DNA of 64,000 nt from Nitrospirota bacterium. GTDB lineage: Bacteria; Nitrospirota; Thermodesulfovibrionia; Thermodesulfovibrionales; JdFR-88. The notes under the pieces were generated by a model. That model ran no database searches. It worked only from the letters and a program-made list of their open reading frames with translations, and was not told the origin of the DNA. Positions 59,431 through 62,747 of this stretch are shown piece by piece. Position numbers and translations under genes: made by a program. The number at the start of each line of letters is the position of its first letter. The first letter of the stretch is position 1. The DNA lies in assembly GCA_021825295.1 (NCBI GenBank), contig JAKAHV010000014.1:1-64000 (forward strand). The letters are read 5' to 3'.

Positions 59431-59805
59431 TCAGGCCTGCTTCTGTTTTTTCCTGTAATCCTCTATGGCAAGCCTCAGTGCGTCGGCCCCCAGGTTTGAG
59501 CAGTGCATCTTCTGGGGGGGCAGGCCGCCCAGGGCGTCGGCCACAGCCTCCTTCGTTATTGTCATCGCCTCTTCGAGCGTCTTTCCCTTGACCATCTCGG
59601 TCACCATGCTTGAGACGGCGATTGCCGCGCCGCAGCCGAAAGTCCTGAACTTTGCGTCCTCTATCCTGCCGTCTTTCACCTTGATGGTGATCTTCATCAC
59701 ATCACCGCATGTGGGGTTGCCCTCCTCTCCCACTCCGTCGGCGTCCTGTATCTCCCCCACGTTGCGCGGATTTGTGAAATGGTCCATCAGTTTTTCGGAA
59801 TACAT
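59431..59805 (-). CDS. iscU: Iron-sulfur cluster scaffold IscU
   Basis: 124 aa. The three cluster-binding cysteines are present: NPTCGDVMKI, FGCGAAIAVS and KMHCSNLGADAL, with the neighbouring Asp. AAAGGAGG precedes the ATG by 8 nt. Overlaps the iscS gene by 19 nt. Last gene of the isc operon; HscA, HscB and Fdx are not nearby, as is common outside Proteobacteria. Confidence 0.95.
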   Translation of the reverse strand: MYSEKLMDHFTNPRNVGEIQDADGVGEEGNPTCGDVMKITIKVKDGRIEDAKFRTFGCGAAIAVSSMVTEMVKGKTLEEAMTITKEAVADALGGLPPQKMHCSNLGADALRLAIEDYRKKQKQA

Positions 59806-60989
59806 GAATCGGCCTCCTTTATTCCGCCCCAGCCGCCGGCATAGGGCGATATTTCCCTCAATCTGCTCACAACAGCCGGGAACTGCTCGACGGCGTAATC
59901 TATGTCCTCCCCGGTGTTTTCCATGCCCAGGGAAAATACGATCGAGCCCTGCGCAAGCTGCGCCGAAATCCCCATGGACAGCAGCACCGGGGACGCCTTC
60001 AGGGCCTTCGAGGAACAGGCAGAGCCGCTTGCGACATAGATCCCCTTCGCTTGGAGCATCAGCAGCATCGCCTCGCCCTCAATGAACTCCACGCAAAAGC
60101 TCGCGTGCCCGGGGAGTCTGCTTGACGGATGTCCGGTAAGATGTATGTTCTTGATCTTTTCAAGCGCTCCGCCTATGAGCCTGTCCCTGAGGGAGGAAAG
60201 TTTCTGCGCCCTCTGGGGCAGCTCCTGCCTCGTTAGCTCCGCGGCCCTGCCCATCCCGACCATGGCCGGGACGTTTTCGGTGCCGGCCCTCCGGCCGTTT
60301 TCCTGGATGCCGCCGTATATAAGCGGTATTATCCTTGTGCCGCTTCTCAGATAAAGCGCGCCCGCCCCCTTCGGGCCGTAAAACTCGTGGGCCGACAGGC
60401 TGAGGGCATCAACCCCAAGGGCGTCCACGTCTATCGGAAGGTAGCCGGCGCTTGCGACCGCATCCGTATGGAAGAGCGCCCCCTTCTTTTTCGCTATCCG
60501 GGAAAGCTCCGCAATCGGCTCGACCGTGCCGACTTCGGGGCTGGCATGGATTATTGATACAAGCGATGTCTCGTCCGTAACCGCTTTTTCTAGCTCGCCG
60601 GGGTCGACCATGCCATATTTGTCAACCGGCAGGTAGGTGACCGCGAAACCCTCCTTCTCGAGGGCGCGGGCCGGGTTCAGGACCGAGTGGTGGTCCATCC
60701 TTGAGACCACTATGTGCCTGCCCTTTTTCGTGTGAGCGGCCGCGAGCCCCTTGATCGCGAAGTTATTGGCCTCCGCCCCGCCGGCGGTGAAGGTTATCTC
60801 CGGCGGCCTCGCGTTTATGAGACCGGCCACCTTCCACCTGGCCTCCTCAAGCGCCTTTTTTGCGCTCTGGCCCAGCTCGTAGAGGCTCAGGGGATTGCCG
60901 AAATTCTCCTTGAAAAAAGGCATCATCGCCTCAAGGGCCTCAGGCCTCAACGGGTTGGTGGCCATATAGTCGAAATACCGCGTGCCCAT
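59787..60989 (-). CDS. iscS: Cysteine desulfurase family IscS/NifS with Lys-to-Glu change at the PLP site
   Basis: 400 aa, class V aminotransferase fold. The catalytic Cys loop SGSACSSKAL, cofactor-stacking His in SRMDHHSVLNP and RAGTENVPAMVG are intact. The PLP Schiff-base motif, normally SxHKxxGPKG, reads SAHEFYGPKG: Glu202 (GAG) replaces Lys (AAG). Without this Lys, normal PLP-dependent desulfuration is not expected. Archaeoglobus fulgidus IscS also lacks it (Asp) and still supports cluster assembly on IscU. In an operon with iscR and iscU; AAGGAAG precedes the ATG. Confidence 0.92.
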   Translation of the reverse strand: MGTRYFDYMATNPLRPEALEAMMPFFKENFGNPLSLYELGQSAKKALEEARWKVAGLINARPPEITFTAGGAEANNFAIKGLAAAHTKKGRHIVVSRMDHHSVLNPARALEKEGFAVTYLPVDKYGMVDPGELEKAVTDETSLVSIIHASPEVGTVEPIAELSRIAKKKGALFHTDAVASAGYLPIDVDALGVDALSLSAHEFYGPKGAGALYLRSGTRIIPLIYGGIQENGRRAGTENVPAMVGMGRAAELTRQELPQRAQKLSSLRDRLIGGALEKIKNIHLTGHPSSRLPGHASFCVEFIEGEAMLLMLQAKGIYVASGSACSSKALKASPVLLSMGISAQLAQGSIVFSLGMENTGEDIDYAVEQFPAVVSRLREISPYAGGWGGIKEADSCIPKN

Positions 60990-60993
60990 TTGC

Positions 60994-61248
60994 CTATCTT
61001 CCTTTCCTGATGAAAAATTTATAGTAATCCGGATTTTCCTCTATTCCCAGAAATTCATTGCCCGTCTCCAGGCACCATTGGGGTATGTCCTCCAGCGCCC
61101 CGTCGTAATCGGTCATTATCTCCAGTATCTGCCCCGGCTCAAGCGTCTTCATCATCTCCTCCAGCTTCAGCAGGTGCATGGGGCACATCATGTAGACGAT
61201 ATCGGCCGTGACATCGGCCTTTATCCCTTCCACAAATTTTATGTTCAC
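60994..61248 (-). CDS. TusA/SirA-like sulfur carrier protein
   Basis: 84 aa. The CPxxxL/K signature appears in YMMCPMHLLKLEEMM, followed by TusA-type strands (GQILEIMTDYDGALEDIP, YYKFFIRKG). The Cys would carry a persulfide. The GTG start overlaps the iscR stop (GTGA); four bases then separate it from iscS. The longer open frame upstream is antisense-like sequence within iscR and was rejected. Confidence 0.82.
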   Translation of the reverse strand: MNIKFVEGIKADVTADIVYMMCPMHLLKLEEMMKTLEPGQILEIMTDYDGALEDIPQWCLETGNEFLGIEENPDYYKFFIRKGR

Positions 61249-61682
61249 GCGCCCACTGCCCTCTCGCTGCCGAATTTCTTGCCCGCCAGGAGATCGTGCA
61301 GCGTCATCTGGTCGAGAAAGCCCTCTATCTTTTCCCCGAGGGCCTTCCACAAAAGGGAGGTCACACACCCGTCGGCCCGGACACACCCGGCAAGGGGGTC
61401 CTGACAGGCCGTCAGCGCAACCGGGCCGTCCAGGCTCCTCAGTATCTCCCCGATGCTTATCGCCTGGGGAGAGCGCGAAAGCAGGTAGCCGCCCCCCGGG
61501 CCGCGCACGCTCGTTATCAGGCCGGCCTTCCTCAGGGTGTTTAATATCTGTTCCAGATAGGCCACGGAGACGTCCTGCCTTTCGGCTATCTCCCGGATGG
61601 CGACCGGATGCTCCGGGTAACCCCTGGATATCTCGAACATCGCCCTTACGCCGTATTGCCCCTTCGTCGACAGTTTCAGCAT
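61245..61682 (-). CDS. iscR: Rrf2-family regulator IscR
   Basis: 145 aa. Winged helix (LSTKGQYGVRAMFEISRG, VSVAYLEQILNTLRKAGLI, RGPGGGYLLSR) and three Cys for a [2Fe-2S] cluster (CQDPLAGCVRADGC). It should repress its own operon when the cluster is present. The promoter region carries an IscR type-1-like palindrome. ATG start with almost no leader. First gene of the isc operon. Confidence 0.93.
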   Translation of the reverse strand: MLKLSTKGQYGVRAMFEISRGYPEHPVAIREIAERQDVSVAYLEQILNTLRKAGLITSVRGPGGGYLLSRSPQAISIGEILRSLDGPVALTACQDPLAGCVRADGCVTSLLWKALGEKIEGFLDQMTLHDLLAGKKFGSERAVGA

Positions 61683-62474: not shown

Positions 62475-62747
62475 TTATCCGTTTTTTATCTTGAAGACAA
62501 CTATTATCGTCCCCAGGACAAAAGAGACGATGTTGGTCACGACGATGGGCGCGGAGCTTATGGAGATGCCGTACAGCACCCAGAGAAAGAGCCCTGAGCA
62601 GAGGGTGACGAACATGCCGGCTGAGATGTCGCGGGTGGATTTTGATCTCCATGTCTTTACGACCTGGGGCAGGTAGGCCAGCGTGGTCAGCGTGCCGGCC
62701 GCGAACCCCAAAAGCGTTGTCCAGCCCATCTGGCTTATCTTAAGCAA
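62475..62747 (-). CDS. SemiSWEET (MtN3/PQ-loop) transporter
   Basis: 90 aa with three membrane helices. The PQ motif is in AYLPQVVKTWRSKST, followed by DISAGMFVTLCSGLFLWVLYG. SemiSWEETs form dimers that move sugars or other small solutes by facilitated diffusion. The start is TTG within the end of the symporter gene, after GAGAGG; an ATG six codons later is an alternative. Probably co-transcribed with the symporter. Confidence 0.88.
   Translation of the reverse strand: MLKISQMGWTTLLGFAAGTLTTLAYLPQVVKTWRSKSTRDISAGMFVTLCSGLFLWVLYGISISSAPIVVTNIVSFVLGTIIVVFKIKNG

Follow-up and report, generated by a model that had tools for sequence, protein, structure and literature searches.

Lysine-less IscS-like proteins of bacteria form a clade linked to TusA genes and may assist carrier-fed iron-sulfur cluster assembly

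The window, a stretch of 64,000 nucleotides from a Nitrospirota genome, carries on its minus strand an operon with the order iscR, tusA, iscS-like gene and iscU, in which the GTG start of tusA overlaps the stop of iscR, and the iscS-like gene overlaps iscU. The four genes are:

61245-61682, minus strand: iscR-like regulator of the Rrf2 family (TIGR00738, above cut-off)
60994-61248, minus strand: TusA-family sulfur carrier with a CPMH motif and a GTG start (PF01206, 72 bits, above cut-off)
59787-60989, minus strand: open reading frame of 400 residues, an IscS-like protein without the PLP-binding lysine
59431-59805, minus strand: IscU/NifU-type scaffold with three cysteines (TIGR03419, 208.9 bits, above cut-off)

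Two of these proteins fall short of the cut-off of a family model: the regulator scores 133.5 bits against the IscR model TIGR02010, under its cut-off of 207.55, and the IscS-like protein scores 485 bits against NCBIfam TIGR03402, below that model's own cut-off of 530.75. The carrier fits the TusA family by its PF01206 match and its Cys-Pro motif, appears as TusA/YedF-like in the scan, and its gene is kept next to the iscS-like gene in relatives. Open reading frames and family scans are thus in agreement with a sequence-only reading of this DNA, which had placed iscR, a TusA-family gene and a three-cysteine iscU in one operon with the iscS-like gene.

That reading had also noted a glutamate in place of the PLP-binding lysine, and both the nucleotide sequence and the alignment to E. 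coli IscS bear this out: positions 60384-60386 read CTC on the plus strand and GAG on the minus strand, coding for Glu202 within SAHEFYGPKG. The alignment places the key residues of the protein as follows:

60774-60776, minus strand: codon of Ala72, at the site of E. coli T76 (PLP phosphate contact)
60537-60539, minus strand: codon of Pro151, at the site of E. coli N155 (substrate carboxylate/PLP contact)
60453-60455, minus strand: codon of Ala179, at the site of E. coli Q183
60384-60386, minus strand: GAG codon of Glu202, at the site of the PLP lysine (E. coli K206)
60015-60017, minus strand: codon of the retained persulfide cysteine, Cys325 (E. coli C328)
59937-59939, minus strand: codon of Val351 in GSIVFSLG, at the site of the substrate-carboxylate arginine (E. 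coli R354)

Residues kept with respect to E. coli IscS are H104, D180, S203, H205, T243 and C328, so that the catalytic cysteine and the stacking histidine are indeed intact, as had been claimed. The C-terminal block, likewise described as intact, is not, its substrate-binding Arg354 being replaced by valine; and the enzyme is not, as had been pictured, sound apart from one substitution, given the further changes T76>A, N155>P, Q183>A and R354>V. Set against the features of an active desulfurase, the protein retains the homology and fold type and the persulfide cysteine on a mobile loop, and lacks the lysine, the Arg354 and Asn155 pair, and the Gln183 and Thr76 contacts. In SspA the equivalents of Arg354 and Asn155 (Arg340 and Asn150) bind the carboxylate of the substrate cysteine (PMC7188994), and in the T. 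onnurineus CDS Arg371 and Asn165 bind that of alanine (PMC5426080); the spacing from catalytic cysteine to substrate arginine is 26 residues in both SspA and E. coli IscS. With the PLP lysine, Arg354 and Asn155 all absent, both the link to the cofactor and the grip on the substrate are gone and, as judged from its residues, the protein is no normal PLP-dependent desulfurase.

A sequencing or assembly error at Glu202 was rejected, as separately assembled relatives at 92, 86, 81, 80 and 77% identity all carry glutamate. A decaying gene was rejected too, the reading frame being intact and dN/dS against relatives at 76-92% identity being 0.10-0.13 (about 0.11), which indicates purifying selection. 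A count of the residues at the lysine site, as the sequence-only reading had suggested, was made on the nearest homologues (one genome per GTDB species, from Nitrospirota, Thermodesulfobacteria-like bacteria, Dehalococcoidia and others): lysine was absent from 80 of 80, the majority having glutamine, and glutamate was confined to relatives of the window protein. With the whole neighbourhood of homologues lysine-less, loss of the lysine as a lone recent event was discarded. The proposed derivation of the glutamate codon from AAG by one base change also found no support, in that the nearest relatives beyond the glutamate group have glutamine (CAG or CAA) and glutamate itself is written as both GAG and GAA.

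A wider survey covered three phylum-level groups, namely the phyla of the window, of a Dehalococcoidales genome and of a Thermodesulfobacteriaceae genome, and kept 198 proteins at less than 97% identity; as the samples were picked by likeness to the window protein, its counts do not measure prevalence. The lysine is present in 47 of these proteins and absent from 151, where the site is taken by Q (115), E (10), P (7), S (4), A (4), T (3), N (3), R (2), M (2) or I (1). Such a spread over ten residues argues against selection for any one replacement, and a specific substitute catalytic residue at this site is accordingly unlikely. None of the 151 lysine-less proteins departs from His104, Asp180 or Cys328, and Thr243 is nearly invariant, while Asn155 is often lost; the sequences thus point to strict selection on the persulfide cysteine. 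Arg354 divides the set, being present in 42/42 canonical proteins (those with both the lysine and Gln183) and in 0/156 of the others, the latter including five that bear the lysine and lack Gln183 and Arg354. These five (L136, L138, L140, L128 and L129) are placed inside the degenerate clade described below, and may mark the lysine as the last residue lost, or multiple losses. A further variant, L170, has glutamine for lysine and methionine for Arg354 and keeps Gln183; a TusA-like match adjoins it, and no IscU was found nearby.

In the phylogenetic tree the degenerate proteins form one clade with 100/99 support, with a few lysine-bearing degenerate members inside it, and only 3-4 changes are needed to account for the losses of the lysine. 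A single lysine-less group that excludes four lysine-bearing degenerate relatives was not rejected (AU p 0.21), so that the losses inside the clade may be one or several. The IscS of A. fulgidus lies outside the degenerate clade in the careful tree, and joining it to the clade was not rejected (AU p 0.57), so that it may represent either an independent loss, as a first quick tree suggested, or a member of the clade.

An AlphaFold2 model of the window protein has the IscS fold (pLDDT 87.8, pTM 0.87), and among the PDB structures that it matches best are A. fulgidus IscS and complexes of human Nfs1 with ISCU, with a TM score of about 0.9 to IscS/Nfs1. The Cys loop (residues 324-329) is modelled with low confidence, which is consistent with a mobile loop. 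Past the IscS core lies another low-confidence region, the C-terminus (59787-59850, minus strand): many of the related Nitrospirota proteins end in SP[YF]AxGWG...C, and this extra conserved cysteine, found in 50 of the 56 tails with GWG, may offer a further ligand or relay site.

Gene neighbourhoods also differ between the degenerate proteins and the canonical ones. Among proteins with enough flanking sequence, a co-oriented TusA gene lies within 1.4 kb of 128/144 arginine-less proteins and of 0/38 canonical ones (Fisher p about 1e-26, uncorrected for kinship). Because the degenerate proteins form one clade, this association is largely a single old event followed by rearrangements, and an independent-pairs test of lysine loss against TusA offered 2-3 pairs and hence no power. 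The gene orders vary (iscR-tusA-iscS-iscU, iscS-iscU-dsrE-tusA, iscS-tusA, iscR-iscS-iscU-tusA, tusA-iscS-iscR-iscU and others), and all detected TusA proteins have the Cys-Pro motif. In a representative Dehalococcoidales locus a DsrE-like gene (PF13686) lies between iscU and tusA, and its homologues occupy the same gap at many loci of the Chloroflexota group. TusA was not found within 1.4 kb of some 14-16 degenerate proteins whose flanks were long enough, the majority of them from the Desulfobacterota-like group, and about a dozen lysine-less iscS loci of that group, most of them with iscU, showed no TusA in the inspected DNA.

Several variants of these neighbourhoods deserve mention. The CPMH motif of the operon's TusA, which replaces the common CPxP, is shared by 76 TusA genes near lysine-less IscS. 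At L141, L143, L145, L146, L148 and L150 the lysine-less IscS is followed directly by TusA, without IscU, and the first two loci adjoin a fatty-acid desaturase gene; Pfam scans beside some degenerate proteins without IscU returned fatty-acid desaturases and cytochromes, with no common theme. At L244, L245 and L246, from the Chloroflexota group, canonical and lysine-less iscS genes lie a few kb apart, one of these loci having two iscU genes.

The source genome (91% complete) contains two separate canonical, lysine-bearing desulfurases (L001 and L003), which answers the suggestion of the sequence-only reading to look for a second desulfurase elsewhere. Its one NifU_N match (PF01592) is the iscU adjoining the iscS-like gene, and at this completeness no SufB/D was detected in it. 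There are nine TusA-family matches, and dsrA, which scores above cut-off, has another dsr-like gene as its neighbour. In the order of the window, a close match to the IscS-like protein (E below 1e-150) occurs in 73/100 genomes, and each such match that was read was lysine-less. SufB/D is present in 39/111 genomes of the order and in only 15/73 of those with the IscS-like protein, 12 of the 15 being weak matches, though a few genomes may lie outside one of the samples. Family f6 has no close match to the IscS-like protein and no NifU_N, and shows strong SufB in 11/11 genomes at least 90% complete; family f10, likewise without a close match, has strong SufB in 9/10 of its genomes that were sampled. 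The single-contig genome G083 (99% complete) has a lysine-less operon with tusA and one NifU_N, and no SufB/D was detected in it.

On balance, we think that the window protein is probably a catalytically dead paralogue of IscS that docks IscU and either relays persulfide from TusA or provides a cluster ligand. Under such a scheme the protein would no longer take sulfur from cysteine, its dimer would become a docking platform for IscU, and the flexible Cys325 loop would either relay sulfane sulfur from the operon's TusA to IscU or contribute a ligand to the cluster as it forms. TusA itself might be charged by the two canonical desulfurases, or by way of the sulfide-rich metabolism that a sulfite/sulfate reducer would have, and in the Chloroflexota group DsrE and TusA would deliver the sulfane sulfur. 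We infer transfer in the direction from TusA to the IscS-like protein and IscU, together with the source of the sulfur on TusA, and likewise an action of the Cys loop on IscU as persulfide relay or ligand. A donor role for TusA would explain the linkage of tusA, and the surfaces needed for a relay exist in the family, since E. coli IscS docks both TusA, with the cysteines about 4 A apart, and IscU (PMC2854127). In E. coli, however, TusA receives sulfur from IscS, the opposite of the proposed direction, and TusA and IscU compete on IscS (PMC11302665). His104 and Asp180, which make contact with PLP, are unchanged in 151/151 lysine-less proteins, and the window protein may still bind a cofactor or ligand. 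The sequence-only reading had already suggested a docking or transfer subunit fed by sulfide or by persulfide from TusA; this part is strengthened by the loss of the lysine and ligand residues, the retained cysteine, the clade tied to iscU and usually to tusA, dsrA and the lack of detected SufB/D. More tentatively, the same arrangement might extend to a widespread carrier-fed Fe-S assembly, mostly in anaerobes, in which TusA, in some cases with DsrE, loads a pseudo-desulfurase and IscU, making a factory without its own cysteine desulfurase.

More doubtful, to our minds, is a role of the A. fulgidus type, with the IscS-like protein docking IscU and lending a cysteine ligand, free sulfide as the donor, and TusA serving another acceptor. 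The A. fulgidus protein, which shares the losses at Q183, K206 and R354, has no lysine and no desulfurase activity and provides a cysteine ligand to the IscU cluster, as summarised in PMC7585200, and sulfide restores growth to E. coli with iscS deleted, whereas it fails to do so when iscU is deleted (PMC13015791). The dsrA gene and the degenerate loci that have iscU and no TusA nearby also speak for this role, which nevertheless leaves the tusA and dsrE-tusA linkage, seen at many degenerate and no canonical loci, unaccounted for. That the protein is a PLP enzyme of changed chemistry, with non-covalent PLP and another residue as the base, appears improbable: the constancy of His104 and Asp180, and the near-constancy of Thr243, speak for it, but the lysine site varies freely, Arg354 is always lost and Asn155 is often lost. 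Least probable of all is a regulatory pseudoenzyme that carries no sulfur and tunes Fe-S assembly by competing with canonical desulfurases for IscU or TusA, as the lysine-bearing paralogues in the same genome and the competition of IscU and TusA on E. coli IscS might suggest, because the persulfide cysteine kept in 151/151 proteins would be superfluous for pure docking and the genome's only IscU sits in this very operon.

Among known systems, the closest is A. fulgidus IscS2 (PDB: 4EB5, 4EB7, 4HVK, 4R5F), which has Asp at the lysine site, as the sequence-only reading had stated and the alignment shows, as well as Ala at Q183 and Leu at R354. Like the window protein, it keeps the cysteine, His104 and Asp180 and has IscU as a partner (in complex in 4EB5 and 4EB7), and the window model matches its fold with a TMt of 0.96-0.97. 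By its lack of the lysine and Arg354, its retained cysteine and its IscU partner, the window protein is of the same kind; unlike it, IscS2 is archaeal and keeps T76 and N155. The archaeal Methanosarcina acetivorans IscS1, likened here by description, is reported to lack the catalytic lysine and belongs to one of three IscSU pairs (PMC7585200). Canonical IscS/NifS proteins (E. coli IscS, H. pylori MisS/NifS) share the fold, the Cys loop and membership of a family that docks IscU and TusA; in contrast to the window protein, they are active enzymes, E. coli IscS keeping Lys206, Arg354, Asn155 and Gln183. The E. coli IscS/TusA/IscU system comprises the same three protein families (PMC2854127), but there IscS hands sulfur to TusA for use in tRNA thiolation, whereas here we propose passage from TusA to the IscS-like protein and IscU. 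The minimal MIS system (MisS-MisU), again likened by description, also has an IscS homologue and an IscU-type scaffold as its core, but is described with a cysteine desulfurase.

A. fulgidus thus provides a known case of lysine-less IscS, and another has been noted in M. acetivorans. The open literature searched, a weak guide with subscription papers mostly outside it, yielded nothing on so broad a clade in bacteria, on Arg354 being lost together with the lysine or on the tusA/dsrE linkage, and nothing on lysine-less IscS in Nitrospirota, Dehalococcoidia or sulfate reducers. Accounts of Fe-S assembly usually begin with a cysteine desulfurase, and here the sole detected IscU pairs with a protein that is not a normal one; its close relatives are found in the majority of sampled genomes of the order, and also in many genomes from the Chloroflexota and Desulfobacterota-like groups. 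Proteins of this type are called cysteine desulfurases by homology alone, and the loss of Arg354 together with Lys206 and Gln183 provides a simple rule for their re-annotation. If true, the proposed relay would supply the Fe-S clusters of anaerobes with sulfur by a route of its own, and would offer a testable explanation of how IscU is fed in sulfide-rich organisms.

Elsewhere in the window, positions 62475-62747 (minus strand) encode a small membrane protein that by eye resembles SemiSWEET/PQ-loop transporters and lies beside a solute-symporter-like open reading frame.
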